From IMG/VR virus record IMGVR_UViG_3300010373_000040, positions 21,240 through 85,239 of that record: DNA of 64,000 bases; one strand, 5' to 3'. The stretch's first letter is position 1. The number at the start of each line of letters is the position of its first letter. Shown here piece after piece: positions 3,745 to 41,907 of the stretch. This DNA comes from a virus. The notes below the pieces were generated by a model, which saw only the letters and a list, made by a program, of their open reading frames with translations, ran no database searches and was not told the origin of the DNA. The translations under genes and the position numbers were made by a program.

Positions 3745-3996
3745 TTATTCTCCATAACTCTCCCATTTCTGGGTTTTAATTTCATCTGATATTTCACCAG
3801 CATTATGATTATTCTCAATCCATGTATAGATAGCTGAGAGATCACGCACAGTAGCTGTAGACTCAATTGGAATATCACCATTGATAGTATTGATCCAAAT
3901 ATCTAATTCTCCATTAACTACAGATAGATCATAATCTACCAAGTATTCATCATCCTCTGTTCCAAGAATGGTATTTACAAAATTAAGCTTGCTCAT
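3745..3996 (-). CDS. Small acidic hypothetical protein
   Basis: This 83-aa acidic protein (MSKLNFVNTILGTEDDEYLV...) has no Cys, membrane or signal features. It lies in the co-directional chain between the 65-aa gene and the 284-aa gene, 3 nt after the former ends. The function is unknown. Confidence 0.7.
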   Translation of the reverse strand: MSKLNFVNTILGTEDDEYLVDYDLSVVNGELDIWINTINGDIPIESTATVRDLSAIYTWIENNHNAGEISDEIKTQKWESYGE

Positions 3997-3999
3997 AGT

Positions 4000-4197
4000 T
4001 TATTGTTTAGATAGATTTTCTAGAACTTCTTTAGCAGTTTTAAATATTGCTTGCCTCTCCTCTTCAGTTAAAGAAAGCCCTTTTAGATAAGTGTGAATAT
4101 CATGAATCTTATCTACTACTGAGGACTCATAGTATCCAAATAAACCATGTTTCATTTCAGCCTCCTCATCTCTATCAAAATTGATTATTATTCCCAT
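4000..4197 (-). CDS. Small hypothetical protein
   Basis: This is a 65-aa protein with a helical, acidic C-terminal half (EEERQAIFKTAKEVLENLSK). It begins 1 nt after the stop of the 50-aa gene upstream, so it is part of the same operon. I do not recognise a family. Confidence 0.7.
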   Translation of the reverse strand: MGIIINFDRDEEAEMKHGLFGYYESSVVDKIHDIHTYLKGLSLTEEERQAIFKTAKEVLENLSKQ

Positions 4198-4198
4198 A

Positions 4199-4351
4199 TT
4201 AGTAAAAGATTATTTTATGTTGAACTCCTTTTTTATCTACAGCATATCCAGCATTGAAATTCTGTTTATACTTGCAAAGTTGAGCAGGATGTTGTCCTAC
4301 TGCTACTTTAATTTGATCTTTGGTTCCTTTGAAAGTGCTGTATAGGCTCAT
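4199..4351 (-). CDS. 50-aa hypothetical protein
   Basis: This 50-codon frame begins MSLYSTFKGTKDQ and ends KKGVQHKIIFY. It fills an otherwise empty gap exactly. Its ATG overlaps the upstream stop as ATGA, and its stop lies 1 nt before the next ATG. That packing is the main evidence that it is real. The protein is basic and has no recognised domain. Confidence 0.65.
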   Translation of the reverse strand: MSLYSTFKGTKDQIKVAVGQHPAQLCKYKQNFNAGYAVDKKGVQHKIIFY

Positions 4352-10655: not shown

Positions 10656-11975
10656 TCATCTTCCATCCAATCTTTTCTTAAAATTCTCAACTAATTCACT
10701 AATACTATTCACTTTAATAATTCCTTTTTTACCTTTCTGACATGACTTGAGCCAATGTTCGTCCTTACTATCCTTCAAGTAAACATTCACAATCAAAGCC
10801 AACTTATCCTCTCCTTCATGTCTAGTAGATCTCCATTCCCTTTGAGAGTTCTTCTCTGGTTTAGAATTTCTACCATATACTATAGAAGCGTTACATCCTG
10901 AGATGTCCAAACCTAAGTCAGCAGCTCTCACAGTATTAAGTCTAGTAAAATCTCCAGCATTAAACATCTTGATGTAAAGCTCTCTAACTTTCTTAGCTCC
11001 TAGTTTAGTAGCAGAACCTTTCTTACCAACTTTAAACCCATATTTCTCCAATAACTCATTAGGAAGTTCCTGACCTTTTATCTGACTGTGGTAAGTCTTA
11101 CTATTAGGAAGAAGTTCTGTAAGCTTCTCAGCAGCATCTATTGAAGCTCCAAAGGTAATAGCTTTCCTATCTGGTAGAGCCTTTAGAATCTCTGCTACAG
11201 TCTTGATCTTACCTAGATGATTCTGGATAAACTTAACTCTCTTTTGAGTAGCATCTTGCCAGATATTAGCTTTCCTTGAATATTCCTTAGCTAGAATCTC
11301 ATAAGAAGGTCCTTGAATCCCGTTAGCTTTGACATAGTTTAAAGCTCCTCCATAGGTTAGGCATTCCATAGCAGTATGAAAGTCTTGTCCAAATGTGGCA
11401 AATGTCTCATCTACTACTATGTTATTCTTATCATAGTATTCTCTCTCTGGGAGGGTTAGTTCTAATCCTAGATTGTATTCTATACTATCAGATACCCACC
11501 CCTTCTCTAAAGCTTCCTGCTTAGTTAAAGTATAAGCACAAGGTAGGAATGATCCTATGATTCTTTTATTATCGCTAGACCATGTACCACTGAGTGCAAC
11601 TAAATAGGCTCCATTAGCTAATTCAAATATCCTTGAGAATACACGTCCTATGCAGAACAATGCTGCCTCATCAATGATAGTTATCTCAGTATTGAGAGGT
11701 TCATTCTTTATAGTAACACCATTAATAACTAGAACTTGGTAGTTAGTCACATTCCATTTAGGAAGTTCTAGCTCCCATTGTTCTTTCAAATTATCTGTAG
11801 GAACTATTACAGACACTCTATAAGCAGGTCTAAGGGCTTGAACTCTTAGAATGAATAGTATAGCCATTCTGGTCTTGCCAGCCGCACCTACGACATCTAA
11901 ATAGCATCTACCCTTATGTTTAATAATGGATTCAACCACCTCCTCCTGCATTATGTCTTTTGAAGATTTAATCAT
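10656..11975 (-). CDS. SF2 DNA helicase (UvsW/RecG-like)
   Basis: This 439-aa helicase has motif I VVGAAGKTR (28-36), motif Ia-like VIVPTDNLKEQW, motif II IDEAA (D102-E103), motif III LSGT (128-131) and a C-terminal motif V TVRAADLGLDI. Motif VI is QREWRSTR (378-385) rather than the usual QxxGRxxR, so the second Gly-Arg is altered. Such enzymes unwind branched DNA during recombination-dependent replication. It is the first gene of the replication block, directly downstream of the CpG-rich island. Confidence 0.85.
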   Translation of the reverse strand: MIKSSKDIMQEEVVESIIKHKGRCYLDVVGAAGKTRMAILFILRVQALRPAYRVSVIVPTDNLKEQWELELPKWNVTNYQVLVINGVTIKNEPLNTEITIIDEAALFCIGRVFSRIFELANGAYLVALSGTWSSDNKRIIGSFLPCAYTLTKQEALEKGWVSDSIEYNLGLELTLPEREYYDKNNIVVDETFATFGQDFHTAMECLTYGGALNYVKANGIQGPSYEILAKEYSRKANIWQDATQKRVKFIQNHLGKIKTVAEILKALPDRKAITFGASIDAAEKLTELLPNSKTYHSQIKGQELPNELLEKYGFKVGKKGSATKLGAKKVRELYIKMFNAGDFTRLNTVRAADLGLDISGCNASIVYGRNSKPEKNSQREWRSTRHEGEDKLALIVNVYLKDSKDEHWLKSCQKGKKGIIKVNSISELVENFKKRLDGR

Positions 11976-13736: not shown

Positions 13737-14147
13737 TTACTTTTTAACTCGTTTATAAGTACCATTGCCTTGATCTATCCACTCACTTAACATATTGATC
13801 TCAAGTTTTGCTTTGAATGCCTTAGCGATGTCATGAGGTGTTAAGCCGTTCCAAGGGACAAGTACACCGATAGAGCGGAGGTAGTCGATCATTTCATAAG
13901 TCATACTTATAAAATCTTGACTTATTCCATCGTGACAATGAAATACCTCGTCTAACATAGCATTGAAATGGCTTTCTTCTTCATCCGTGAGGCTTTCGAT
14001 TGACCGGAGAGATAGGTGATCAGTTCTCCAAATTGTTTCTTGTCCGATCTCCAATAAACCGCATGGGTAATTCATACAAGCTATCGATTGCCCCCAATAA
14101 TTGGCGAAAAACTTCGCTTTATTCTCTGGTGTGTTTTCTGGTTTCAT
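13737..14147 (-). CDS. Bacteroidota phage/prophage hypothetical protein
   Basis: This 136-aa protein begins MKPENTPENKAKFFANYWGQ and contains the block IDYLRSIGVLVPWNGLTP, which I have seen in hypothetical proteins of Bacteroidota prophages. No catalytic motif is visible. It is coupled to the 96-aa gene by ATGA and is CpG-rich. Confidence 0.75.
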   Translation of the reverse strand: MKPENTPENKAKFFANYWGQSIACMNYPCGLLEIGQETIWRTDHLSLRSIESLTDEEESHFNAMLDEVFHCHDGISQDFISMTYEMIDYLRSIGVLVPWNGLTPHDIAKAFKAKLEINMLSEWIDQGNGTYKRVKK

Positions 14148-14963: not shown

Positions 14964-15328
14964 ATCACTTCACAATAGTACAAATATCCACTACCTGAGC
15001 CATCAGTGATAATTATAATCACTTCACTATTCTTATCAAATAGAACAGTAGCATAGTACTTCCTTCTATGATCATAGTAAACAAATGTTAAATAACTATC
15101 CCCTTTTACTTCTTCATAAGCTTTCTCTTTTATATCAAAAGCTTTATCATGATTAGAGAACTTCAAGAAAGCTCCATCTATAGAAATCTGTTGACCATTC
15201 CCCTCAATCTTACCTCCTACATCTTTAAGGTCTACCTGCTTAATCTTAGATATAACCCTAAAATGTATTGATTCTGCCTGTCCTACTACTGATAGCAAGA
15301 CCAAACAAAGTGTTATAATGTGTTTCAT
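14960..15328 (-). CDS. Exported (periplasmic) hypothetical protein
   Basis: This 122-aa protein begins MKHIITLCLVLLSVVGQAES, a clear Sec signal peptide with a likely cut after GQA. There is no lipobox Cys, so the mature 100 residues should be free in the periplasm. The mature part is beta-rich. It is translationally coupled to the 64-aa gene. An envelope role is plausible but unproven. Confidence 0.75.
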   Translation of the reverse strand: MKHIITLCLVLLSVVGQAESIHFRVISKIKQVDLKDVGGKIEGNGQQISIDGAFLKFSNHDKAFDIKEKAYEEVKGDSYLTFVYYDHRRKYYATVLFDKNSEVIIIITDGSGSGYLYYCEVI

Positions 15329-28990: not shown

Positions 28991-29064
28991 ATAGTGGGAT
29001 AACGGTCAGGTTGTTTACCTGCCTTGGAAGCAGGAGGTCGAGGGTTCAAATCCCTCCCACTATA
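28991..29064 (+). tRNA. tRNA-Pro(UGG)
   Basis: Acceptor ATAGTGG/CCACTAT, anticodon arm CCTGC-CTTGGAA-GCAGG (anticodon TGG, codon CCA), T-arm GAGGG-TTCAAAT-CCCTC, 74 nt. Position 8 is G instead of the usual T. CCA is not encoded. Confidence 0.88.
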
Positions 29065-29140
29065 CGACACAGGTTTTACGTACTGTCACCTGCCGAGAAA
29101 CAAAAAAGACAACGATACAGTTAGGGAGAGACCTAAACAT

Positions 29141-29212
29141 TTTCCTGTATGCTAATTGGCAGGCAATCTGACTTTGACTCAGATGGTACAAGTTCGAATC
29201 TTGTCGGGAAAA
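29141..29212 (+). tRNA. tRNA-Gln(UUG)
   Basis: Acceptor TTTCCTG/CGGGAAA, D-arm TGCT/GGCA, anticodon arm TCTGA-CTTTGAC-TCAGA (anticodon TTG, codon CAA), T-arm ACAAG-TTCGAAT-CTTGT, 72 nt. CCA is not encoded. Confidence 0.92.
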
Positions 29213-29214
29213 CT

Positions 29215-29287
29215 GTAGAGTTGCGCTAAGTGGTTAAGCGGACTGCCTGTGAAGCAGTTTATATGAGTTCGAGCCTCATACTCTACC
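29215..29287 (+). tRNA. tRNA-His(GUG)
   Basis: Acceptor GTAGAGT/ACTCTAC with C discriminator, D-arm CGCT/AGCG, anticodon arm ACTGC-CTGTGAA-GCAGT (anticodon GTG), T-arm ATGAG-TTCGAGC-CTCAT. The exact 5' end may shift by one base because tRNA-His carries an extra G. Confidence 0.9.
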
Positions 29288-29290
29288 CAC

Positions 29291-29362
29291 ATCTCTGTAG
29301 ATCAATGAATAGATCAAGTAGCTACGAACTACTAGATAGAGGTTTGAATCCTCTCGGAGATA
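29291..29362 (+). tRNA. tRNA-Arg(ACG)
   Basis: Acceptor ATCTCTG/CGGAGAT, D-arm GATC/GATC, anticodon arm AGTAG-CTACGAA-CTACT (anticodon ACG, needs A-to-I editing by the host), T-arm AGAGG-TTTGAAT-CCTCT, 72 nt. Confidence 0.92.
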
Positions 29363-29365
29363 CCT

Positions 29366-29439
29366 GCCCAATTGGTGGAATTGGTAGACACACAGGTCTT
29401 AGAAACCTGTTTTTATAGGTTCGATTCCTATATTGGGTA
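29366..29439 (+). tRNA. tRNA-Leu(UAG) with short variable loop
   Basis: Acceptor GCCCAAT/ATTGGGT, a Leu-type D-loop (GGTGGAATTGGTAGACAC), anticodon arm CAGGT-CTTAGAA-ACCTG (anticodon TAG, codon CUA), T-arm ATAGG-TTCGATT-CCTAT. The variable region is only about 5 nt (TTTTT), whereas tRNA-Leu normally has a long arm. The anticodon decodes Leu CUA and is not an amber suppressor. Confidence 0.87.
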
Positions 29440-29449
29440 CTTTAAAATT

Positions 29450-29485
29450 AAAGGTATGTTCTCTTGTGAGTATGCCTTTTTTTAT
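29450..29485 (+). terminator. Rho-independent terminator of the tRNA operon
   Basis: AAAGGTAT (29450-29457) pairs with ATGCCTTT (29472-29479), one G-T pair, followed by a run of T. It ends the tRNA cluster. Confidence 0.75.
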
Positions 29486-29562
29486 TTACTATTGTACATA
29501 ATCACATATAGGTAAACACCTAAGTACATATATGTGAATAACACCTAAACACTAAACTTATT

Positions 29563-29898
29563 ATGGAAACACTAATGACTTTTGGAGAAGCTCTTGAACT
29601 TGTTAAACAAGGGAAATTGATTTCTAGACAAGGTTGGAATGGTAAAGGTATGTTCATCTTCCAAAGACCTGAAGACAGCATTCACATCAGTACTGTAATT
29701 ACTCAAGTAAAATCGCTCCCTGCTGCAGTAAAGAGCTTTTATACTTCTAGAGTATGGGCTGATTCTGAGAACCAGATGGTTAAATTCACTCCATACTTGT
29801 GTATGAAAGCTGCTGATGATAGCATTGTAAATGGTTGGTTAGCATCTCAGACTGATATGTTGGCTAATGATTGGTCTGAGTTCAGCTACGGAGTATAA
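29563..29898 (+). CDS. tad2: DUF2829 protein; probable Thoeris anti-defence protein Tad2
   Basis: This 111-aa protein fits DUF2829: an N-terminal helix (MTFGEALELVKQGKLI), then SRQGWNGKGMFIF (21-33) and the C-terminal block PYLCMKAADDSIVNGWLASQ with DMLANDW. Characterised DUF2829 phage proteins are Tad2, which sequester the cyclic ADP-ribose signal made by Thoeris immune systems. By family this protein should act as a soluble tetrameric sponge in the host cytoplasm. It has its own leader (AAACACTAAACTTATTATG) and sits after the tRNA terminator, apart from virion genes. The family match is strong; the Tad2 role is inferred from homology. Confidence 0.85.
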   Translation: METLMTFGEALELVKQGKLISRQGWNGKGMFIFQRPEDSIHISTVITQVKSLPAAVKSFYTSRVWADSENQMVKFTPYLCMKAADDSIVNGWLASQTDMLANDWSEFSYGV

Positions 29899-29977
29899 AC
29901 ATTTACCGTATGATGGCTAAGGAGATCTTGGTCTGGGCCTGTAAACCTCATGAAACAAAGGTAATTTTAACACTAGA

Positions 29978-30229
29978 ATGAATATCCCAAAAGAAGCAGT
30001 AGAGAAGTTTAAGACCATAGTTGAATTACGACTCTACTGCTATATTTGTGATAACTCTTTTGAAGGTATGTGGCAACTCACCTGGATAGAGAAGATGGAA
30101 TTGAAAGATCAATACTTCATTAAAGCCAATCAAATCCCTAGAGCTTTAGAGAACCTAGTAAAAGAAGGAGTATTGAGTAGAGTTAAAAAAGGGGTTTATA
30201 AACTAGAAACACTTAATGAAGCCATATAA
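29978..30229 (+). CDS. Small winged-helix-like protein
   Basis: This 83-aa protein ends with FIKANQIPRALENLVKEGVL and a KKGVYKLE hairpin, a typical wing-and-recognition-helix arrangement. It begins MNIPKEAVEKFKTIVELRLY. It may bind DNA or a replication partner. Its last 14 nt overlap the metallopeptidase start. Confidence 0.68.
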   Translation: MNIPKEAVEKFKTIVELRLYCYICDNSFEGMWQLTWIEKMELKDQYFIKANQIPRALENLVKEGVLSRVKKGVYKLETLNEAI

Positions 30230-30605
30230 AACCTATCACTTTGAGATACCTTTACACATCTATCCTTTTAAGGTGTTGTTTAGTATGGGTGAATCAGATG
30301 AGGTCCTTCTCAAGAAATTGAAGAAGTATGGAGAGTTTCATCAAGAAGAGTCTGACAATCTCAAATTGACAGGTGTTGGAAGATGTATAATGTGTTTTGA
30401 TTATAGGCTGGTAATTATAAGAATAGACCCATTGTTTTCTGAGAAGCATGAAACATTAGGAACTATTAATCATGAAATACTCCATGCTGTTATCTATATA
30501 TTAGATGCTTGTGGAGTTAAGTTAGAGAAAGGAGTTAGTGATGAGGCTTTTACTTACTTAATGGGGTACATATCTGCAGAAATCCACAAGAAAATCAAAC
30601 TTTAG
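30216..30605 (+). CDS. Zincin-like metallopeptidase
   Basis: This 129-aa protein has the zinc motif H86-EIL-H90 within INHEILHAVIYIL, with a third-ligand candidate E110 in VSDEAFTYLMGYI. The HExxH plus downstream Glu layout is that of gluzincins. Small phage proteins of this type are common in Bacteroidota phages; their substrates are unknown. It is coupled to the winged-helix gene. Confidence 0.72.
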   Translation: MKPYKTYHFEIPLHIYPFKVLFSMGESDEVLLKKLKKYGEFHQEESDNLKLTGVGRCIMCFDYRLVIIRIDPLFSEKHETLGTINHEILHAVIYILDACGVKLEKGVSDEAFTYLMGYISAEIHKKIKL

Positions 30606-30625
30606 AAACACTTAAACAATAATAT

Positions 30626-30913
30626 ATGACAATTCTATTTCAACCTGACAGAGGGCATTTGATCTTAACAAAGCCAGCAGAGCCTACAGAAAAGGAGCTT
30701 AAATTACCAGACCATCTTACTAAATCAAAAGTGAAGATATGGGATGTAGTAGCTTCTAATCCAGGTAATGTTCACCAAGTTGGTGAAAAGATTATTCTTA
30801 CAGATGGGGCTAAAGTATTTACAATATCATTGCCTACTACAGAAGGTTCTATGGAATTCTGTACAGTGGATGATGACTGGGTATTTGGTAAAGTGGAAGA
30901 TGTCGCTATCTAA
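30626..30913 (+). CDS. Possible GroES-like co-chaperonin
   Basis: This 95-aa beta-rich protein begins MTILFQPDRGHLILTKPAEP. The order of features resembles GroES: R-x-L-I-L-KP strand, a polar loop (KELKLPDHLTKSK), VASNPGNVHQVGEKIILTDG and a closing CTVDDDWVFGKV strand. Phages such as T4 encode co-chaperonins for capsid folding. The mobile-loop hydrophobic tripeptide is not clear, so this is a structural analogy only. It overlaps the zinc-ribbon gene by 14 nt. Confidence 0.5.
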   Translation: MTILFQPDRGHLILTKPAEPTEKELKLPDHLTKSKVKIWDVVASNPGNVHQVGEKIILTDGAKVFTISLPTTEGSMEFCTVDDDWVFGKVEDVAI

Positions 30914-31121
30914 CCTTCCAGAGGCTATAGTATCGAGGATTCAGAAAGCTAGAGGTTTAGCAACTGAATCCTCTTTATCTTTGCAGAAACAAAGGTTAGA
31001 GATTTGTGATAAGTGTCCTGAGAAGAAAATGATAGGGACTGAGGTTTGTGGCCTCTGTGGCTGTTTTTTGCAGCTCAAGACATTAGTAGAAGATGAACAT
31101 TGTCAAATTAAGAAATGGTAG
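30900..31121 (+). CDS. Zinc-ribbon protein
   Basis: This is a 73-aa protein (MSLSNLPEAIVSRIQKARGL...) with CDKC, CGLCGC and a late CQIKKW, giving six Cys for one or two zinc sites. The closing C-x-x-KKW and the CGCxLxxK block are typical of small phage tail-region proteins of unknown function. The ATG at 30900 is preferred to an earlier in-frame ATG that lies deep in the previous gene. Confidence 0.72.
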   Translation: MSLSNLPEAIVSRIQKARGLATESSLSLQKQRLEICDKCPEKKMIGTEVCGLCGCFLQLKTLVEDEHCQIKKW

Positions 31122-31675
31122 ATATAGAAGAAATTACTATAGACAAGCTTATAAACGAATATGGAGGAATTCATATTAGAGGGTATGAAGATTATATAGT
31201 CCTTCCGACAAGTGAAATATTTTCTATAAAGTTCAATACTATAAGAAAATTAGTTCCTCAGATATTACATAAAAATGGAAAACCTTCGGCCTATAGACAA
31301 ATTGTGGTAAGACAGCAGGGCAAAGACCCTGCCAGGAGGTTGATTCACAGAATTGTAGCAGAGACATTCATACCTAATCCAGAAAACAAACCTCAAGTGA
31401 ATCACAAAGATGGTAATGGGTCTAATAACCATGTTGACAACTTAGAGTGGTGTACAGGTCATGAAAATATGGCTCATAGCTTCAGAATATTAAAAAGAAG
31501 AATGGCTGTAGGAGAAAAAGTACATTTAAGTAAACTTACAGAAGAAGAGGTTATAATGATACGAAAAATATATCCAAAGGGACATGCTACACAACAAGAG
31601 TTAGCCAAAATATTCAATTGTCATCCAACAACAATATATTCTGTTTTAAGTTACATAACATGGAAACATATTTAA
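31115..31675 (+). CDS. Free-standing HNH homing endonuclease
   Basis: This 186-aa protein has a NUMOD4-like N-terminal part, an HNH nuclease core (IHRIVAETFIPNPENKPQVN, then HKDGNGSNNHVDNLEW at 97-112) and a C-terminal helix-turn-helix (TQQELAKIFNCHPTTIYSVL) for target binding. Such genes spread by cutting related phage genomes. It overlaps the neighbouring genes at both ends by 7 and 16 nt, so it has settled between them without breaking either. Confidence 0.88.
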   Translation: MVDIEEITIDKLINEYGGIHIRGYEDYIVLPTSEIFSIKFNTIRKLVPQILHKNGKPSAYRQIVVRQQGKDPARRLIHRIVAETFIPNPENKPQVNHKDGNGSNNHVDNLEWCTGHENMAHSFRILKRRMAVGEKVHLSKLTEEEVIMIRKIYPKGHATQQELAKIFNCHPTTIYSVLSYITWKHI

Positions 31676-32466
31676 ATAGACCTACGTTTTTCGAGAAAGA
31701 TCATAAATATTTAAATTTAACCACTGGTGAACAATACACGAGTGTTACACAACTACTCCATAAGTATGCTCCAAAATTTGATGCTGATGTCATAGCTCAG
31801 AAATATGTAGCTAAAAGAACTGAAAACAAGCTTATAGCTGATTTAATGGCTAAATACGTAATTTCTAAGGATTCTTTATTGGAGTCATTTGAGAATATTG
31901 GTTATGTAGAGACAGTAAAGCTTCTTTGGAGAGAAGAGAATGAGAGATCTTGTATTTCTGGTACAGCTTATCATAAGAAGAAAGAAAACATTGATTTAGC
32001 TACTATTGAAGTAGGTCAAGTCCCTGTAGAAATAGAGGATCTATACCAATTAATTGACGGCACATATTTAGAGTTACTTATTTGGTCTAATGAATTAGGT
32101 ATTGCAGGTCAGGCAGATAAGGTGATTATTGAGACTATTGGAGAAGACAGATTTGTAACCATAATTGATTATAAAACAAACAAAGAGATTAAGAACTATA
32201 ACTACCTTAACAAAAGAGATGGTACTCCAGTAATTAATGAGTATCTTTTAGCTCCAGTGAACCATCTATGTAATTGTAATTATAACTTGTACCAATTACA
32301 ACTAAATTTGTATGCGTATCTTTTGGTACAGTTTGGCTTTAAGATTAAAGGTGGAAAGATCATCCATGTTACAGATAATGATAAGATTTATCCTTTAAAT
32401 AATCATCAAGCAGATATTGAAGCTATTATAGAAGACTATCGAAATGGTTCAAAAAGAGATAATTAA
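31660..32466 (+). CDS. PD-(D/E)XK nuclease (RecB/Cas4-like)
   Basis: This 268-aa protein has the nuclease signature: GTAYH (101-105), E138 in TYLELLIW, GQAD153 and IDYKTNKE (D170-x-K172), followed by YQLQLNLYAYLL. This fits RecB/Cas4-type exonucleases found upstream of the IHF-like gene in crAss-like phages. It probably acts in recombination or genome processing. I chose the ATG at 31660 (METYLNRPTF), which removes most of the overlap with the HNH gene. Confidence 0.85.
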   Translation: METYLNRPTFFEKDHKYLNLTTGEQYTSVTQLLHKYAPKFDADVIAQKYVAKRTENKLIADLMAKYVISKDSLLESFENIGYVETVKLLWREENERSCISGTAYHKKKENIDLATIEVGQVPVEIEDLYQLIDGTYLELLIWSNELGIAGQADKVIIETIGEDRFVTIIDYKTNKEIKNYNYLNKRDGTPVINEYLLAPVNHLCNCNYNLYQLQLNLYAYLLVQFGFKIKGGKIIHVTDNDKIYPLNNHQADIEAIIEDYRNGSKRDN

Positions 32467-32968
32467 GAAGATTGCTGAAAGAGAAGAGCTTACAGAAAAG
32501 CAGGTTGAGGAAATAATCAAATCTCAAGGTGACTTTACTGTAAAGTCTATGAAAGAGGGAAAATCTATTAAATTGAGTAGGTATGGGAAGTTAGTCCCTA
32601 TTGCCAGATTGAGAGATTATAGAGAGGGTAATATGCCTAAACCTAGTAGAAGGGTTAGAATTAGAGCTAAACTTGATACTCCAACTAGTAAGAAGCTTCC
32701 TACCTACAGAAGTATTATTGATCCTGATAAGTTAGTAAGAGCGTTCTGGATAGATTCTATTGCTACAGATGATAACTTCTGTGAGCTGTTCTTGTCTCAA
32801 GAGGAAGTAGAATTAGAATATTCTAAATCCTTTACTACAACAAAGATATTTTACATGGATCATAAGCCTAGAGAACAGGAAGGATTCTTTGTCTTGGGTT
32901 TAGAAGGGGTTATGAGCTATGTGATAGAAAGTGAGTTTAAAGCTAAATATGAAAGAATTTATGATTGA
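32444..32968 (+). CDS. IHF/HU-like DNA-binding protein
   Basis: This 174-aa protein has an HU/IHF-type N-terminal half: two helices (KEIIKKIAEREELTEKQVEE and IIKSQGDFTVKSMKEGKSIK) and the SRYGKLVPI strand. A basic extension follows (PSRRVRIRAKL). These proteins bend DNA. In crAss-like phages such proteins lie near the terminase genes and could help packaging or late transcription. Its start overlaps the nuclease gene by 23 nt. Confidence 0.75.
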   Translation: MVQKEIIKKIAEREELTEKQVEEIIKSQGDFTVKSMKEGKSIKLSRYGKLVPIARLRDYREGNMPKPSRRVRIRAKLDTPTSKKLPTYRSIIDPDKLVRAFWIDSIATDDNFCELFLSQEEVELEYSKSFTTTKIFYMDHKPREQEGFFVLGLEGVMSYVIESEFKAKYERIYD

Positions 32969-33224
32969 GTATAAGACTTATAGAAATAGATTTCATGGAT
33001 TTACCATAGAAGCTTTTAAAATAATGGGGGCTTCTTGGGATGGTGAAGTAGCTAGAGTATTCACAGAGAATGGTACAGTGAGTAACGGTGGCTTTGTAAC
33101 CGTTTCTGAGGATTTTTATAATAAGAATCTATCTGAATTAGTTTTTGGGTATCTTATAAAAGACGAAGAAAATATGATAACTCGTGATGAGTTTTCAAAA
33201 ACTTACACACCTGTAACAGAATGA
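32961..33224 (+). CDS. Hypothetical protein upstream of terminase genes
   Basis: This 87-aa protein begins MIEYKTYRNRFHGFTIEAFK. The ATG at 32961 overlaps the IHF-like stop by 8 nt. The frame extends further upstream to 32931. It is beta-rich and small. It is coupled by 4 nt to the next gene. The function is unknown. Confidence 0.65.
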   Translation: MIEYKTYRNRFHGFTIEAFKIMGASWDGEVARVFTENGTVSNGGFVTVSEDFYNKNLSELVFGYLIKDEENMITRDEFSKTYTPVTE

Positions 33225-33805
33225 TTAAGTTATTTGAAGTAAATGATCAAGGAATACCTGAGATTTCTACAGAAGCTAGGACTATTCAGGTGTTTAAGAA
33301 GCTAATTACCAGAGATAAGGGTAGTGAAGGTGATCATGATGGTAGAAAGAAACATCAAGCTACTAAAGAATTAGCTTTTATTTACTTCTATGCTAAGTTT
33401 GATAGTCCTTATGAGCAGTTTACAGTGGAGTCTGATAAGGTCCTACAGATTAAAAAAGCTGTTGGATTGGAAGATAAGTGGAAAATAGACTCAGATATAA
33501 AAGAGGCTATAGCTTATTTCCAGATGATTCAGAATACTAGATCAATGAAGCATTTAGCTTCTGTAGAAAATGCTATAGATAGCTTGTCTGATTATTTAAG
33601 AGATACTGATGTAAATGAAAGGATTAAAATAGGACCTAAGTCAGGGGAACTGGTGCATGATCTCAACAAGTATAAGTCCTTGGCTAAGGAGATGCCTGAT
33701 CTTATAGAGGCTTATCATAAGACTAAAGACCTTGTTAGAAAAGAATTACAAGAAGAACAACAGTTAAGAGCTGGGAGAACTACTAATAAGTATACCGAAG
33801 GTTGA
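33221..33805 (+). CDS. Putative small terminase-region protein
   Basis: This 194-aa helical protein begins MIKLFEVNDQGIPEISTEAR and has a long central helix region (DIKEAIAYFQMIQNTRSMKH) and a basic, coiled C-terminus. It ends exactly where the TerL start begins (TGATG). By position and helical nature it could be the small terminase subunit, but I see no clear helix-turn-helix, so this is inference. Confidence 0.62.
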   Translation: MIKLFEVNDQGIPEISTEARTIQVFKKLITRDKGSEGDHDGRKKHQATKELAFIYFYAKFDSPYEQFTVESDKVLQIKKAVGLEDKWKIDSDIKEAIAYFQMIQNTRSMKHLASVENAIDSLSDYLRDTDVNERIKIGPKSGELVHDLNKYKSLAKEMPDLIEAYHKTKDLVRKELQEEQQLRAGRTTNKYTEG

Positions 33806-35859
33806 TGAGTAAACAAGACTTCAAGTTTAAAAGTACCTGGAAATTTAGGGAAGCTGCTATCCACTTTGAGAAGCATAAGTGCTACACCTTTCATATTCCA
33901 GGTACTTTTAGTTATTTTGAGTTTTGGGATGAAGAAAAGAGAAGATGTACAGAAGGTTATATTGTAGGTGGTGTCAGAATTACAGGATACCACTATTTTT
34001 ATCTTAACTACTGTCCTATCATACAGGTAAAGGCTATTGGAGTAAATGATGGTCTTAAAAAACAAGCTGCAGAAAGGATTGAAGGGTTCCCTAAGTTTTG
34101 GGACCTAGATTGGAGGTACTTTACAGCTCTGGATATTGCTGAGTATGGTATATCAGAGGAAGACTATGCTAAACTCCCTGTAGAAATAGATATAGTATTA
34201 GATGAAGATAACACTTCTGGGGGTAAGCACTTTATCTGGTTAAAACCTAGAGGGGTTGGAGCTTCTTGGAAAGGTGCTTCTATGCCAGCCAGAAACTTCT
34301 TCTTTGTTAAGAATTCAAAATCTTACATGTTTGCTGAAAGTACTGAATATCTTAATAAGGATGGTATTTTCAGTAAATTTTTGCTTTATAAGAACTTTAT
34401 AAATGAACATACTCCCTTCTACAAATACACAGATGTAAAGAATGATCTAAACAAAATGCACCTCAGAGCTTCTCACAAAGATATGAAGGGGAATGAGATT
34501 GGGTTTATGTCAGAGGTGATGGGAGTTGCTGTAGAAGGTAAGGATGATAAGGTCCGTGGGAAAAGGGGTAAGATTACTTTATTTGAAGAGTTTGGAGCAT
34601 TTACTAATGCTGATAAATGTATAGAAGTTTCTAAGTCTTCTCATGAAGAAGGTAACTTGGTCTTTGGTACTATGGTCTGTTTTGGTACTGGAGGTACTGA
34701 GGGTAAGGCATTTGAATCTATGGAGAAGTTATTCTTCAATCCTATTTCTCAAGGAATGCTTAGATTCCACAACGTCTATGATGATGACTTAATTGGGACT
34801 GAATGTGGATTCTTCACTCCAGCTACATTCAACGTAGCATTTATAGATGAGGAAGGAAATACTGATAGAGTTAAGTCTAAAGCATTTTTAGATAAGGAAA
34901 GAGAGAAGAAATTAAAGTCTCCAGATCCTAATGATGCTGCCAGAGCAAAAGCAGAACATCCTTATACTCCTCAGGAAGCTCTACTAAGAACCAGCAGTAA
35001 CATCTTCCCTAAAGCAGAATTACTATCTTGGAAGACTGAATTAGTTTCTACTAGAAAAGCTGTAAATCTTGCTATTTATGGAGATTTAGAGGATACTAAA
35101 ACAGGGGTCAAATTCAGACCTAATCCTGATGCCAGGCCTGTTATGAAATATCCTCATGATAAGAAAGAAGATAATACTGGTTGTATAACTATATGGGAAA
35201 CACCTTTTAGGAAGGATGGGATAATATATGACAACATGTATATCCTAGTAGTCGATCCATATATGCATGATACCACTACAGGAGATTCCTTGGGAGCAGC
35301 CTATGTTATTAAGAACATAAACCCTTTATCTAAACCAGATGATATTATAGTAGCTTCTTTGGTTGGAAGACCTGCTACAATGGATATTTTTCATAAAAAA
35401 GTTAGACAATTATCAGAATACTACAATGCTAAAATTGGATTTGAAAACAACGCTGGTCAAGCTTTATTGGCCTACTTTAAGGCTAATAGAAAAATGCAAC
35501 TACTTGCTCCAGAGTTCTCTCTAGGGTTCAATGAAAATATCCCTAAATCTGGAGTCAGAAGAGGATATGGTATGCATATAGACCAAAGAAGAAAAGATAT
35601 AGGTCTTAGCTATTTAGCTGATTGGCTTATTAAAGAATGGACTGTAACTGAAGAAGGAGAAGTTCTGTATAATTATCATAAAATCTATGATATAGGTCTA
35701 TTAGAGGAGTTGATTAAGTTCAATCCTGATAGTAACTATGATAGAATTTCTGCTATGGTAGTTGGAATGTTCCACCAAAAGGAGATTGAGTGGAAATATG
35801 GTAATAAGGCTTTCGCTAAAACCCAATCTTCTGCCTTTTTTACCAACGTTCATTACTAG
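33805..35859 (+). CDS. terL: Terminase large subunit (TerL)
   Basis: This 684-aa protein is the ATP-driven DNA packaging motor. Its ATPase Walker A is KPRGVGASW (147-155), and Walker B is ITLFEEFG (257-264) with the catalytic Glu at 262. The RNase H-like nuclease follows with YILVVDPYMHD (D484) and further acidic residues downstream. The ATG at 33805 overlaps the upstream stop (TGATG). It precedes the portal gene, as in crAss-like phages. Confidence 0.93.
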   Translation: MSKQDFKFKSTWKFREAAIHFEKHKCYTFHIPGTFSYFEFWDEEKRRCTEGYIVGGVRITGYHYFYLNYCPIIQVKAIGVNDGLKKQAAERIEGFPKFWDLDWRYFTALDIAEYGISEEDYAKLPVEIDIVLDEDNTSGGKHFIWLKPRGVGASWKGASMPARNFFFVKNSKSYMFAESTEYLNKDGIFSKFLLYKNFINEHTPFYKYTDVKNDLNKMHLRASHKDMKGNEIGFMSEVMGVAVEGKDDKVRGKRGKITLFEEFGAFTNADKCIEVSKSSHEEGNLVFGTMVCFGTGGTEGKAFESMEKLFFNPISQGMLRFHNVYDDDLIGTECGFFTPATFNVAFIDEEGNTDRVKSKAFLDKEREKKLKSPDPNDAARAKAEHPYTPQEALLRTSSNIFPKAELLSWKTELVSTRKAVNLAIYGDLEDTKTGVKFRPNPDARPVMKYPHDKKEDNTGCITIWETPFRKDGIIYDNMYILVVDPYMHDTTTGDSLGAAYVIKNINPLSKPDDIIVASLVGRPATMDIFHKKVRQLSEYYNAKIGFENNAGQALLAYFKANRKMQLLAPEFSLGFNENIPKSGVRRGYGMHIDQRRKDIGLSYLADWLIKEWTVTEEGEVLYNYHKIYDIGLLEELIKFNPDSNYDRISAMVVGMFHQKEIEWKYGNKAFAKTQSSAFFTNVHY

Positions 35860-35870
35860 TAATATTTGTA

Positions 35871-35878
35871 TATATTTG
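35871..35878 (+). promoter_or_regulatory. Possible late promoter (-7 element) before portal
   Basis: TATATTTG lies 15 nt upstream of the portal ATG in the 34-nt gap after TerL. No TTTG is found 19-21 nt upstream, so it is only a half match; it may be chance in AT-rich DNA. Confidence 0.3.
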
Positions 35879-35893
35879 TAAAAATCACTACTC

Positions 35894-38329
35894 ATGGCTA
35901 AAGCTACCAGACAGAAATTACTATATTCTAAGAAAAATAAAGATTGGAGAAGGGAGTCTGTAGCATATTACTACCAGAGATGTAGACCAAACAATATACT
36001 TTTTCAGACATTATATAAAGCAGCTAATGGTGAGATAGATACTACTGACTATTCCTACATAACTAATCCTTATGGGAATGCTGTAGCTACTAGACCTGAA
36101 TTACAATCATATCCTGCTAAACTTAGAAACTATCCTATTATCCCAGAGATCATCCAATTGTTATTGGGAGAAAAGAGAGATAGACCTCTTTTAAGTTCTG
36201 TAATAGCTATTAATCCAGATACTATCAATAGAAAGAAAGCTGAGCAAGTTATTGCCATGAAAGGAGCTTTACAGCAAACCTTTGTAAATACTCTTAATGC
36301 TTTAGGGATGGATACTGGATTAGATACTAAACCAGTTCCTCCTTTAGATGAGTTTATGACTTCTCTGGATGATAATTGGGCTGATCAGAGATCTGTAGTA
36401 GGTCAGGAAGTACTTAATTACATCATTGAGGACCTAGATATTCCTGAGAAGTTTATACAGGCTTTTAAACATTGGTTAGTAACAGCTACTACCTATACTA
36501 TTAAAGATGTAATCAATGAAGATATTGTCTATAGAATCCTAAACCCTAAACATGTTGGATTTATAGCAGATGAAAATACTGAATATGTAGAGGATGCTGA
36601 AGCTGTCTGTGTGGATGAGTACATGTCCAAAGCTTCATTTTTAGACAGATATTGGTCTTTAATTCAAGAAACTATTATAGCTAATCCTGATCAGACAGAA
36701 AAGCAAACTAGAGAAGACCTTACTGATACTATAGATAGAGATGATAGATATACTACTAATAATCTTATCACAACCTTTGGCTCTTCCAGTAATTTATCTT
36801 CTGGTTTTTCTACAAGTTTGTATGATACTAACTTGTCTAGCTCTCAATTTATAGGGGTACTCGGTGAGAACATTAAGGTCAGTTATGTGAACTGGACCTC
36901 AATGAAGCTTATTAAGAAAGTAGCTATAATGAATGAAACAGGAGAATTAGAGACTATAATGGTTCCTGATGATTATAAAGTAGAACCAGCTTTTGGTGAA
37001 ACTCTTATTGAAGAGTACTGGGTAAATGAGAAGTGGGAGGGGTATGTAGTAGATAATGATAAATTCTATTTTGGGGTACAACCTATCCCTATTCAAAGAA
37101 ATGGTATCAATAATAAATCTTCTTGTAAGAATCTTATTAATGGTAGAATCAGAAGAATGGGTGATAGAAAGGCTTTATCTGTTGTAGAGCTTTTAATGCC
37201 TTTCCAACATCTATATAACTTTGGTCACTATAAGTTAAATAACATCTTAGCTAAGAATAAGGAGAAATTACTTCTTATGCCAATGGGATTAATGCCTGAT
37301 AAAAATGGCTGGGATATGTATACTACTATGTATCATGCAGATGCTAATGGTTTTATGTGGGTTGATGAAACCAAAGAGAACTTTATTACTGCAGTAAACG
37401 CTATTAAAGCTATTGATCTAGGTCTTGGTAATTATATAGAGTTTATGTATAGGTATCTACAGAATATTAAAGCTGAGGCTGAAGGAGTGGTAGGTATCAA
37501 TCCTCAAAGAAAGGCTGCTGTATCTGCTGGAGATGGATTAGGTACTACACAAACTGCTATAGCTCAATCTAGTGTTATTACTGCAGATCTATTTGAAGAC
37601 TTTGAGAAGTTCCAGGAGAAAGATCTTTGTGGGCTTTTGGACCTATCTAAATTTGCTTACATCAGTGGTAAGAAAGCAGCTTATTTGAACTCTGCAGGTA
37701 GAACAGCTTTCCTTGAGATTAATGCTGAAGATGAAGACTTCTCTGAATCTGAGTTTGGTGTTAAGGTATCTTCTTCTGCTAAAGAGAAAGAGAAGTTTGA
37801 TAAGATGAAGCAATTTGCTGAGACTTTAGCTAGTCAGAAAGTTAAAGCTTCTCAATTAGCTGCTATACTTAATGCTGAATCTAACTTTGGTAAGTTAGTT
37901 ACAGAACTTAAAGAAATTGAAGCTCAAGAAGATGCTCTAGCGCAACAAACTGCTCAAGCAGAAGCTGACTTCAAGAACCAAGAGCTACAGAGTAAAATGC
38001 AGTTAGAGCAACAGAAGATTAATCTTAAAATGTATGAGATTGATCAGAATAACATCACTGCTGAGAAGGTAGCTCTTATTCAGTCTGAGACTCAATTATT
38101 AGGATTGGATAAGAATCTTAATGGGGTAGATGATTCTCTAGAGGTAGAGAAAAATGCTTTAGCTAGAGATAAGCATCTTAATGAGATGGGTTTAAAGCAA
38201 AGAGAGCTTGATATGAAAGCTAGTGAAACTAAGATAAAGGCCGATACAGAGATATATAAAGCTGATACAATGCTTAAAATCGCCCAGGAAAACCAAAATA
38301 AAGCAGAAATTAAAGCTAAAAAGAAATAA
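35894..38329 (+). CDS. Portal protein
   Basis: This 811-aa protein should form the dodecameric ring through which DNA enters the head. It begins MAKATRQKLLYSKKNKDWRR. The block RPELQSYPAKLRNYPIIPEI is typical of crAss-like portals, and the body has the long central helical region expected. The last 150 residues are a Gln/Lys/Glu-rich coiled coil (QAEADFKNQELQSKMQLEQQ), perhaps a barrel extending into the head. It follows TerL and precedes small virion genes. Confidence 0.88.
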   Translation: MAKATRQKLLYSKKNKDWRRESVAYYYQRCRPNNILFQTLYKAANGEIDTTDYSYITNPYGNAVATRPELQSYPAKLRNYPIIPEIIQLLLGEKRDRPLLSSVIAINPDTINRKKAEQVIAMKGALQQTFVNTLNALGMDTGLDTKPVPPLDEFMTSLDDNWADQRSVVGQEVLNYIIEDLDIPEKFIQAFKHWLVTATTYTIKDVINEDIVYRILNPKHVGFIADENTEYVEDAEAVCVDEYMSKASFLDRYWSLIQETIIANPDQTEKQTREDLTDTIDRDDRYTTNNLITTFGSSSNLSSGFSTSLYDTNLSSSQFIGVLGENIKVSYVNWTSMKLIKKVAIMNETGELETIMVPDDYKVEPAFGETLIEEYWVNEKWEGYVVDNDKFYFGVQPIPIQRNGINNKSSCKNLINGRIRRMGDRKALSVVELLMPFQHLYNFGHYKLNNILAKNKEKLLLMPMGLMPDKNGWDMYTTMYHADANGFMWVDETKENFITAVNAIKAIDLGLGNYIEFMYRYLQNIKAEAEGVVGINPQRKAAVSAGDGLGTTQTAIAQSSVITADLFEDFEKFQEKDLCGLLDLSKFAYISGKKAAYLNSAGRTAFLEINAEDEDFSESEFGVKVSSSAKEKEKFDKMKQFAETLASQKVKASQLAAILNAESNFGKLVTELKEIEAQEDALAQQTAQAEADFKNQELQSKMQLEQQKINLKMYEIDQNNITAEKVALIQSETQLLGLDKNLNGVDDSLEVEKNALARDKHLNEMGLKQRELDMKASETKIKADTEIYKADTMLKIAQENQNKAEIKAKKK

Positions 38330-38330
38330 G

Positions 38331-38537
38331 ATGAAAAAACTAAGAGATATTCCTACAGATGCTTATACTAAGTATGCTAAGGGTGGCATTCATATCAAAG
38401 CTGCCAACAAAGGGAAATTTGACGCCACTAAAAAGAGGACTGGAGAGTCTACTGAAGAGTTAACTCATTCTAAAAATCCAGTCACAAAGAAGCGGGCTAT
38501 ATTTGCTCAAAACGCCTCTCACTGGAAAAAGAAATAG
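38331..38537 (+). CDS. Small basic virion-region protein with KG-repeat motif
   Basis: This 68-aa basic protein contains YAKGGIHIKAANKGKF and then LTHSKNPVTKKRAIFAQNAS before a KKK end. The first segment matches motifs repeated in the 647-aa tail-side protein at 51867. Similar small proteins with KRAxFAxNAxxW occur next to portal genes in related phages. It probably goes into the virion. The function is unknown. Confidence 0.75.
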   Translation: MKKLRDIPTDAYTKYAKGGIHIKAANKGKFDATKKRTGESTEELTHSKNPVTKKRAIFAQNASHWKKK

Positions 38538-38539
38538 TT

Positions 38540-39256
38540 ATGCCAGATAATAAGCCAAAGAAAAAAGCTGCAGCAACTCCTAAACCTAGTGTTTTAAGAA
38601 TAGCTGATTATAATGAATATGTCTCTAGAAAAAGAGCCTATGATGATAGTTCCACCACCTATCAGAACTCTATAGACAATCATAATAAACTTTTAGCTAT
38701 AGGCATGAAGAAGACAGGCTCTTCTAAACCCACAAAAGATGAAGCTGATGAAATGCTAGTTACTGGTGGAACCATGAATAATTTTAAGCATTCTTATACA
38801 GATGAATCAGGTAATACAGTAAATAAGAAAGCTAAACTTTTTCAAACCACATCTTCTAAAATAGCTCCAGTTAAAACTAATACCTATACAGGAAAAGCTT
38901 TAACAGATGCTGATGGGGTATCTTATCAACAAGAAACTACCATTCCTATTTATAAAGCTCCTTCTCAGAGAGTAGCTTATGATGATTCTATTGATAGAAA
39001 GGCAGCAGAGATAGTTAAACAACAAGCTCCTGCAGAAAAGGCTAGAGATCTTCATGCTAAAAGAAGTGTAGGGGGCTATAAGAAGGTAGCTTCTTCTGAT
39101 CCTAAATATAAGAATTTGAGAGAATATTCTACCTACAAACAGAATTCTGATAGTTTGGTAGAAGATCCATTTAAGAAGAAAATGATTGAAAATAGAAATA
39201 AGACACTTTCTAAACCTACTACAAAGGCACTTCCTAAGAGAAATTCTGGAACTTGA
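38540..39256 (+). CDS. Hypothetical virion-region protein
   Basis: This 238-aa protein is very polar and low in hydrophobic residues, rich in Lys, Ser and Thr (MPDNKPKKKAAATPKPSVLR). It is probably largely disordered. It lies between portal and scaffold-like genes, so it may be a minor head or internal protein. No domain recognised. Confidence 0.7.
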   Translation: MPDNKPKKKAAATPKPSVLRIADYNEYVSRKRAYDDSSTTYQNSIDNHNKLLAIGMKKTGSSKPTKDEADEMLVTGGTMNNFKHSYTDESGNTVNKKAKLFQTTSSKIAPVKTNTYTGKALTDADGVSYQQETTIPIYKAPSQRVAYDDSIDRKAAEIVKQQAPAEKARDLHAKRSVGGYKKVASSDPKYKNLREYSTYKQNSDSLVEDPFKKKMIENRNKTLSKPTTKALPKRNSGT

Positions 39257-39323
39257 TAAGAAATAGGATAATAGAGTTTCTAGATTTTAAAAATAACAGA
39301 GGTTTTAACACAAACCTATTTTA

Positions 39324-39331
39324 TATATTTG
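39324..39331 (+). promoter_or_regulatory. Possible capsid-operon promoter (-7 element)
   Basis: TATATTTG lies 28 nt upstream of the scaffold-like start, in a 102-nt gap. A TTTG at the usual -33 spacing is absent. High capsid expression would be helped by a promoter here. Confidence 0.42.
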
Positions 39332-39358
39332 AGTACCTACACACTAAACTAAACACTT

Positions 39359-40435
39359 ATGAGTACTAAAGATAAAGATCCTTTAGAGGATATTGATTAT
39401 GCTAAGTTAAATGAACTTAGTACTACAGGAGGAACTAATGATGAATATCTACATCCTGAAGAAGAAACTGAGGAAACAGAAGAAACTACTGAAGAAGAGG
39501 TAGAAGAACAAGCTGAAGAAGGAAATATACCAGAAACTGTTTTAGACAGCACTGAAGAAAGTGGTATAGAGTTCTTTATTAGTGATTTTCAAACTAAAAC
39601 AGGTTTGGAGTTTTCTGATGAAGAATTAGAGGTAGCTGCTGGATTAGGAGAAGATATTGAATCACTTAGTGAATTAGCTCTATTAGCTGGTAGAAAGATA
39701 GCAAATGCAGAATTAGAAGGATTCTATGCAAAAAACCCTGACTTATATGAAGCACTTCTTTATAAGCAAGCTAATGGCTCTCTTAGTGGATTCGGTAAAG
39801 AAGTTGGTAGTCCCGACTATTCCACTTTAGATCTAGATGAGGTAGATAATCAAAAATTGATTTATACTGAATACAGGAGGTTAAAAGGAGATACTGATGA
39901 AGAAATTGCTGAAGCTATTGAGTTAGCTGAAACAAAGAATATTCTTCAAAAGAAAGCTGAGGATGCTAAAGAAGTAGTAACTAAACATTTTGCTAAAGCA
40001 GAAGAAACTAGAAAGAAGAATCTAGAGATTACTATAGCAAAAGAAAGAGAAGAAGAACAAGCTATTGTAAAGCAGGTCTTTGATATTATTGATACTGGAA
40101 AGATAATGGGTGTTCAATTATCTAAGAAGGAGCAACAAGAATTTAAGGACTTCTTAGCTAAACCTGTAGATAAAGATGCTAATACAGCAAAAAGTTTAGC
40201 TTACGATAAGCTGACTATTGAGCAAGAACTTCTTATTGATATGTTTGTAAAGAATGGGTTTAAGAACATAGCTGCAATTGAAAAACCAACTGTAGATAAG
40301 CTTAAAAAACTTAAAGAAAACCTAAAAAATAGAATTCCTCCGGTGGGTGATACCAAGAAAGGTCAAGATTTGAAGCAAGGGACAGGAGCTGATGAATTTG
40401 ACTTTAAGGCAATGGAGGAGATGCTTAAAAAGTAA
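39359..40435 (+). CDS. Scaffold-like acidic protein
   Basis: This 358-aa protein has an extremely acidic N-terminus (EETEETEETTEEEVEEQAEE near 36-60), a helical coiled centre and a Lys-rich C-terminal region (PTVDKLKKLKENLKNR). Such a layout directly before the capsid gene is typical of phage scaffolding proteins. The role is inferred from position and composition. The leader ACTAAACACTTATG fits the recurring motif. Confidence 0.72.
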   Translation: MSTKDKDPLEDIDYAKLNELSTTGGTNDEYLHPEEETEETEETTEEEVEEQAEEGNIPETVLDSTEESGIEFFISDFQTKTGLEFSDEELEVAAGLGEDIESLSELALLAGRKIANAELEGFYAKNPDLYEALLYKQANGSLSGFGKEVGSPDYSTLDLDEVDNQKLIYTEYRRLKGDTDEEIAEAIELAETKNILQKKAEDAKEVVTKHFAKAEETRKKNLEITIAKEREEEQAIVKQVFDIIDTGKIMGVQLSKKEQQEFKDFLAKPVDKDANTAKSLAYDKLTIEQELLIDMFVKNGFKNIAAIEKPTVDKLKKLKENLKNRIPPVGDTKKGQDLKQGTGADEFDFKAMEEMLKK

Positions 40436-40458: not shown

Positions 40459-41907
40459 ATGGCTAATTTTAATCAGAAACTCAGCTTATATACAGATACG
40501 TATAATACGGATAAGTATACCAGCATTAACTACCTAGCTGCTGGAAAGCTTGCAGCTGCTGAGGAGTTAACCACTACAGTTGTTCAATTGTATGGTAACT
40601 GGTCAGACAGGTTCCCTCTTTATCTATCTACAAAAGGTAGAAAAGGTGGTACTAAAATGATCAAGTCTCCAGATGCTTTGTTCACTATCCCTATTATGGG
40701 TAAACCAAAGAAGTCTTCCTCTATTGCTAAAACAATCTATGCTGCTACAGATAAGATTGGTGCTGGTAAAGCAGAGTTCTACATCTACATGGTAGATAAG
40801 TGGTTGAAAAAAGGTGACATTGTTGAAACATACAAAAAGAATAAACTTAAAATCCAAGAACAAGATAGAGAAGAAGGTGGCTATTACAGGTATATTGCTC
40901 AAGTAGTAGGTGCTGATTCTTTGAACTACCTTACTAATGATGAGATTTCTCCAGGTAGAAAACTAGCTGTGATGTACCAAGGTGCTGGTCTTGTTAATTC
41001 TAGAGGTAGAGAATCCCGTTCTCAAGCTCCTGCTAGAATGCAGAACCAATGTGCTTTCTTGAGAAATTCTTATAATTGGAAAGGCAATATTGAAAATAAA
41101 GTTATGGCTATTGATTTGCCTACAATGAGTGGTACTACTACTTTGTGGCAACAATGGGAGTTGTTTCAATTGGAACTTCACCAAATGGAAGAGACTGAAA
41201 ACTACTTGTGGTATTCAGAATGGAACAGATCCCCTGAAGGTATTGTAATGGATACAGATCCTGATACTGGAGAGAAAATGCCATTTGGTTCTGGTTTGCT
41301 AGAACAAATCCCTAATCAATCTACTTATGGTCAATTGACTGTAGAGAAGATTAAAAGAGTAGTGCGTGATGTAATGTATAACTCTGCTGCTGATAAAGTA
41401 CGTGAAATTACTCTTTATACAGGTAGAGGTGGTCAAGAACAATTTGACCTTGCAATGAAATCAGATCTAGTAGGAATGGGTTACCAATATCAACAATCTA
41501 CTAAACAGATCTCAGGAACTCCAAACTCTCATGATCTAGTTTACGGATCTTACTTTGGTACTTTCAAACATGTTGATGGTCACACAGTATCTATCAAGTA
41601 TCTACCATTACTAGATCTTGGTGCTAGAGCTGAAGCTGCTCCTAAACATCCTTTGTCAGGTCTTCCAATTACATCTTATGATATGTATTTTGTAGATGAG
41701 TCAGTGATTGATGGTATGCCAAACATCCAGTATGTTCAAGAAGAAGGTAGACAAGAAATCAAGAAATTCATTTATGGTTTGAATGCTAAAGACCAAAATA
41801 TAATATCTTCTGATGCAGATGCTTCTTCTGTACAAATGGGTAGATCAGTGGGTATCCACATGTTTAATCCTATCAACTCATTCAAGTTAATTTGTAACTT
41901 GTCTTAA
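40459..41907 (+). CDS. Major capsid protein
   Basis: This 482-aa protein is the right length and position for the crAss-like HK97-fold capsid protein: after the scaffold-like gene and before a strong terminator. It begins MANFNQKLSLYTDTYNTDKY and contains RMQNQCAFLRNSYNWKGNIE and GHTVSIKYLPLLDLG, typical of the family. Translation should be strong. Codons are unusually even and the gene stands in its own promoter-terminator unit with the scaffold-like gene. Confidence 0.85.
   Translation: MANFNQKLSLYTDTYNTDKYTSINYLAAGKLAAAEELTTTVVQLYGNWSDRFPLYLSTKGRKGGTKMIKSPDALFTIPIMGKPKKSSSIAKTIYAATDKIGAGKAEFYIYMVDKWLKKGDIVETYKKNKLKIQEQDREEGGYYRYIAQVVGADSLNYLTNDEISPGRKLAVMYQGAGLVNSRGRESRSQAPARMQNQCAFLRNSYNWKGNIENKVMAIDLPTMSGTTTLWQQWELFQLELHQMEETENYLWYSEWNRSPEGIVMDTDPDTGEKMPFGSGLLEQIPNQSTYGQLTVEKIKRVVRDVMYNSAADKVREITLYTGRGGQEQFDLAMKSDLVGMGYQYQQSTKQISGTPNSHDLVYGSYFGTFKHVDGHTVSIKYLPLLDLGARAEAAPKHPLSGLPITSYDMYFVDESVIDGMPNIQYVQEEGRQEIKKFIYGLNAKDQNIISSDADASSVQMGRSVGIHMFNPINSFKLICNLS

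Follow-up and report, generated by a model that had tools for sequence, protein, structure and literature searches.

The 64,000-nucleotide stretch of DNA analyzed here (the window) comprises bases 21240 to 85239 of an 85,239-base contig, an IMG/VR virus record; complete circular Crassvirales genomes are roughly 83 to 105 kb. Replication genes, coding for a DNA polymerase, a Sak4-like annealing protein, a DnaB-like helicase, and a helicase, lie on the minus strand of the left arm. The window also encodes a crAss-type TerL (33802 to 35859, plus strand; phrog_6681, 1e-108), a portal protein (35894 to 38329; phrog_6547, 4e-93), and an MCP (40459 to 41907; phrog_11589, 1.6e-64), of which TerL and MCP are about 36% and 32% identical, respectively, to proteins of uncultured crAss-like phages. 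Judged by these three matches to crAss-type PHROG profiles, the phage is crAss-like (Crassvirales), as a first-pass annotation made from the letters alone had proposed.

The gene under study, a tad2-like gene, lies apart from the virion genes, since packaging and structural genes start 3.9 kb downstream, at terL. It occupies positions 29563 to 29898 on the plus strand, starts with ATG, ends with TAA, and encodes a product of 111 amino acids (aa) with the N terminus METLMTFGEAL and the C-terminal end GWLASQTDMLANDWSEFSYGV. Upstream of it, five tRNA genes, Pro(tgg), Gln(ttg), His(gtg), Arg(acg), and Leu(tag), were identified on the plus strand at 28991 to 29440 with ARAGORN and Rfam RF00005; the tRNAs reported at first reading are real. 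Between tRNA-Leu and tad2 there is a hairpin resembling an intrinsic terminator, with 12 pairs followed by a T run (29450 to 29479, plus strand). Transcription of the tRNA genes should stop at this hairpin, so that tad2 has a leader of its own of 83 nucleotides (nt) (29480 to 29562, plus strand), as had been suggested. The leader holds two copies of AACACCTAA at 29515 to 29556, the second of which lies inside CCTAAACACTAAA just before the start codon, and the repeat is a possible leader or promoter motif. Promoter matches in the leader were not above those in shuffled sequences in a scan that covered sigma-70 types, and a search for a shared promoter motif yielded weakly similar strings before 2859 to 3713 (minus strand) and 39359 to 40435 (plus strand), none of them convincing.

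Several small genes follow tad2 on the same strand. A 23-aa open reading frame (ORF), MMAKEILVWACKPHETKVILTLE (29910 to 29981), lies between tad2 and the gene of an 83-aa wHTH protein (29978 to 30229), and its stop codon overlaps the wHTH start (ATGA), which suggests translational coupling. The wHTH protein scored 21.3 bits against an AbiEi antitoxin-type winged-helix domain; this is below the cutoff of 25, and we did not accept it as part of a toxin-antitoxin pair. The 129-aa protein encoded at 30216 to 30605 matches phrog_1365 (unknown function) and carries an HEXXH motif (NHEILHAV), and it is possibly a small zinc metalloprotease. The gene at 30626 to 30913 (95 aa) stands where relatives have a GroES-like gene, with 26% identity over 84 columns (hhalign E = 0.06). 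PF00166 gave no match in its product, which is possibly a diverged GroES-like co-chaperonin. A DUF6171-like match at 30768 to 31121 lies at the place corresponding to that in two related contigs, L086 and L091.

The family of the tad2 product was established by profile and sequence searches. In hmmscan, PF11195 ("Thoeris anti-defense 2-like domain," formerly DUF2829) was the sole Pfam family found, at E = 2e-24 and 86.4 bits (gathering score, 25) over residues 5 to 105. The match covers profile positions 1 to 71 of 73 and is thus one to the full domain, as had been proposed, and both motifs quoted for it, RQGWNGKGM and GWLASQTDMLANDW, are present in the product. With phmmer, eight distinct PDB sequences were matched at E ≤ 1, all but one being Tad2/AcrIIA7 chains. 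The best match was AcrIIA7 9kzr (7.6e-41), with the HgmTad2/AcrIIA7 chain (8kbi to 8kbm and 8wjc) at 2.4e-40 and SptTad2 at 2.8e-31; ModTad2 and SPO1 Tad2 gave far weaker matches (about 1e-15), their alignments being broken in two and leaving out the long insertion described below. Relatives of the product were found by tblastn in 330 phage records. These data indicated, far beyond chance, that the product is a member of the Tad2 family by sequence, and the presence of such a protein in a crAss-like phage is thus confirmed.

To place the window Tad2 within its family, a maximum-likelihood tree was built from 97 Tad2 rows, which were taken from viral contigs, genomes of bacteria, and records of phages, together with three chains from the PDB. 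The window Tad2 and HgmTad2 share a 16-row clade (support 98/99), nested in a clade of 33 rows into which SptTad2 also falls (support 97/99); the named bacterial genomes and phage hosts of the members of the larger clade are Bacteroidota. Over 99 columns, the window protein shares 65% identity with HgmTad2; with SptTad2 the figure is 58%. Members of the HgmTad2/SptTad2 clade are marked by a long insertion, which separates the FIF strand from the (K)FTxYLCM strand and carries the motif R-P ... (V/I)-K-S-L-P ... K. In the window Tad2 the insertion spans codons 34 to 74 (29662 to 29784, plus strand), 41 residues in all, and reads R35-P36 ... V49-K50-S51-L52-P53 ... K57. Four of its residues, R35, S51, P53, and K57, are invariant in all 24 aligned clade members, and at every column conserved at ≥80% the protein agrees with the clade consensus except at I40, a conservative L-to-I change, while the tip of the insertion (residues 61 to 70) is variable.

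An AlphaFold2 monomer model, computed from an alignment of 45 window and locus sequences, was obtained with a pLDDT of 91.5 and a pTM of 0.79; the insertion tip, residues 61 to 70, is of lower pLDDT (block mean, 75). The predicted structure has the Tad2 fold. In a Foldseek search of the PDB, its top match was the apo AcrIIA7/HgmTad2 crystal structure 8kbi (TM 0.83/0.88, rmsd 2.2), and the other leading matches were 8kbk ("AcrIIA7 complexed with 1',2'-cADPR and cGG"), 8kbj, and 8wjd ("SptTad2 complexed with cGG"), followed by ModTad2 with hisADPR and SPO1 Tad2 with gcADPR. All 24 PDB matches at E ≤ 0.001 were Tad2/AcrIIA7 chains. Agreement with the ligand pockets of these structures was judged through clade-wide conservation and the fold match.

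By sequence, then, the window Tad2 is closest to HgmTad2 (AcrIIA7), a protein from the human gut, rather than to the founding anti-Thoeris protein, SPO1 Tad2. Likeness to HgmTad2/AcrIIA7 (8kbi, 8kbj, 8kbk, 8kbl, 8kbm, 8wjc, and 9kzr) extends to fold, insertion class, clade, and sequence identity; the window protein differs in its insertion, which has one more residue and varies in the stretch from residue 61 to residue 70, in a short C-terminal tail, SEFSYGV, and in its setting, a crAss-like phage in which the gene follows tRNA genes and has a leader to itself. SptTad2 (8wjd, with cGG) shares the KSLP-type insertion in a shorter form, of 34 residues versus 41 in the window Tad2 when counted between reference columns. 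By comparison, SPO1 Tad2 (8sme to 8smg and 8wje) and Myroides ModTad2 (8v3e and 9eib) share the family and the core fold but leave the long insertion unaligned, and their ligands are gcADPR or His-ADPR. Because the nearest characterized relative is HgmTad2/AcrIIA7 and the CBASS-associated insertion is present, the label of the first-pass annotation, an anti-Thoeris Tad2, holds for the family but is probably too narrow as a statement of function.

What is on record for the family gives this assignment its functional content. Tad2 is described in a review as a homotetramer in which gcADPR is sequestered in pockets between the protomers, with an insertion between beta2 and beta5 by which cyclic dinucleotides are bound at separate sites, cGG with high affinity, and as a suppressor of TIR-STING signaling (PMC12043709). 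The remark at first reading that some relatives are reported to bind other cyclic nucleotide signals was correct. Elsewhere, SPO1 Tad2 was found not to bind 3'3'-cGAMP (PMC11722364), and His-ADPR was reported as the ligand of ModTad2 (PMC13299392). Because of its subclass, the window Tad2 is expected to act like HgmTad2, and we reasoned from sequence, model, and analogy that it is very probably a dual sponge, taking up the signals of both Thoeris and CBASS/TIR-STING. By analogy with its relatives, it would form a homotetramer during infection and would bind, without degrading them, cyclic ADP-ribose-type Thoeris signals in the inter-protomer pockets, while sites built by the insertion would hold the cyclic dinucleotides (such as cGG and 3'3'-cGAMP) of CBASS, including TIR-STING CBASS. 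Effectors would then be starved of their signal, so that the infected cell would not abort and the phage would be protected.

Were dinucleotide binding by the insertion lost, the protein would be a sponge for ADP-ribose-type signals only (gcADPR or His-ADPR), like SPO1 Tad2 and Myroides ModTad2. Such a protein would also carry the conserved core seen here (GWNGKGM, GWLASQTDML, and DW), which is common to Tad2 proteins, and the structures of SPO1 Tad2 and ModTad2 also match the model. Furthermore, ThsB-type TIR domains were found in more of the sampled Bacteroidota genomes than prok_STING (76/297 versus 14/297, a phylum-wide sample), although many of the TIR matches are weak or lie in larger proteins and thus need not be Thoeris. 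However, the window Tad2 groups with the cGG-binding HgmTad2 and SptTad2 and has kept the invariant residues of the insertion, whereas SPO1 Tad2 and ModTad2 match it far more weakly and in pieces that skip this very segment. We therefore consider loss of dinucleotide binding unlikely.

The name AcrIIA7 would point to an anti-CRISPR acting on Cas9, since the nearest PDB sequence, 9kzr, was deposited under that name and AcrIIA7 originated in a functional screen with Cas9 (reported in PMC6739867). Yet reports of AcrIIA7 activity conflict (PMC13131331), its homologs are scattered among six phyla and are seldom found together with II-A self-targeting (PMC6739104), and the HgmTad2/AcrIIA7 chain has been crystallized with cADPR and cGG, so that an action of the window protein on Cas9 appears exceedingly improbable. 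The fold might also have been turned to a different role, structural or involving another small molecule, and no longer serve as an immune sponge, given that the family is large and mostly without tested members and that crAss phages encode very divergent Tad2-like proteins (ctbg_1, 18% identity; cr108_1, 23%). The window copy, in contrast, is not divergent, all of its highly conserved clade positions being intact but for the one conservative change, and a switch of this kind is very unlikely. The dual sponge of the HgmTad2 subclass thus remains the reading we favor.

Contigs related to the window phage were compared for the surroundings of tad2. One viral contig (L084, IMGVR_UViG_3300010371_000199) is 99.99% identical to window positions 29984 to 39741 and may represent a second sampling of this phage, provided that the window record does not itself derive from the sample of L084; since it begins just past tad2, it is uninformative on the conservation of the gene in place. 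A second contig (L085), 83% identical to the window phage, begins inside terL. In L086 and L091 (40 to 42% TerL identity) no Tad2 was found, L086 being a record of a fragment. The order upstream of TerL in these two contigs is a GroES-like gene (PF00166 above the cutoff), a DUF6171-like gene, an HU-like gene, and a gene of a conserved protein of 165 to 169 aa; tad2 precedes this GroES/DUF6171/HU block, in a stretch whose content varies between relatives.

Tad2-like genes were then located in more distant crAss-type genomes. Among 24 reference Crassvirales surveyed, PF11195 was found in two, ctbg_1 and, below the Pfam cutoff, cr108_1. In ctbg_1 (Intestiviridae, L133) the Tad2-like gene lies at 3976 to 4281 and TerL starts at 7520. 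In cr108_1 (Steigviridae) it lies at 10677 to 11069 (L159:4678-5070), preceded by a tRNA gene and a small ORF and followed by GroEL, and TerL starts at 15063. The two proteins (AXH74485, UniProt A0A345MSY5; QOR58949) are only 18 to 23% identical to the window Tad2 and lack GWNGKGM. A third case, contig L015 (TerL, phrog_6681, 1e-50), carries an HgmTad2-type gene at 1483 to 1785, downstream of which lie GroEL (PF00118) and then TerL, all on one strand. In the window phage, L015, ctbg_1, and cr108_1 alike, the Tad2-like gene is thus on the strand of terL and 3 to 4.5 kb upstream of it, and some of the four adjoin tRNA and/or chaperonin genes. Counterexamples are contigs L016 and L021 and csAssE-Sib, a 151-kb gut phage with a crAss-type TerL (OR575929.1). 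Its two Tad2-like genes, at 13792 to 14061 (minus strand) and 100391 to 101146 (plus strand) (loci L083 and L123), lie in different modules, neither of them at that position; one is of the HgmTad2 type (WOZ57239), and the other encodes a long protein whose C-terminal domain is Tad2-like. In a random-placement estimate made by hand and post hoc (about 95 kb, either strand; the 10-kb contig L015 left out), the position occurred in 3 of 7 loci against an expectation of about 0.026 per locus, a chance of about 6e-4 for a small sample in which the family match of cr108_1 is weak. We regard this recurrence as a lead, not a result. Tentatively, and with the balance somewhat against it, we suggest that Crassvirales might keep a preferred counter-defense slot where the chaperonin/terminase module begins, after the strand switch or tRNA genes and 3 to 4.5 kb upstream of terL, where Tad2-type sponges of very different subclasses stand in distant lineages (the four named above) through repeated gain at a hotspot or through ancient retention and rapid divergence. 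Other accessory genes there may then also serve in counter-defense.

Kinship places the host no more closely than Bacteroidota. It had been suggested that the sponge would tell us which defenses this host carries, a claim that the analysis does not support: the likely ligand range spans several defenses, such that a multi-ligand sponge indicates no single one, and both ThsB-type TIR and prok_STING are patchy in Bacteroidota. prok_STING was above the cutoff in 1 of 300 Bacillota genomes; together with the Bacteroidota counts, this agrees with the idea that a sponge able to bind cGG would be of use in Bacteroidota.

Earlier records already cover the Tad2 family, with its fold and types of ligand, and also its presence in crAss-type genomes, where the ctbg_1 protein is annotated as "Tad2-like" in UniProt and a csAssE-Sib protein as "DUF2829"; current knowledge is not overturned by the window Tad2. 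Instead, a well-studied type of sponge, that of HgmTad2, is placed in a crAss-like phage, and the window Tad2 is a candidate protein ready for study, for which known structures serve as a strong template. The position upstream of terL is a practical place to seek further counter-defense genes in crAss-like genomes. Finally, the finding predicts that cyclic-nucleotide defenses (Thoeris and CBASS/TIR-STING) would act on crAss-like phages in Bacteroidota.
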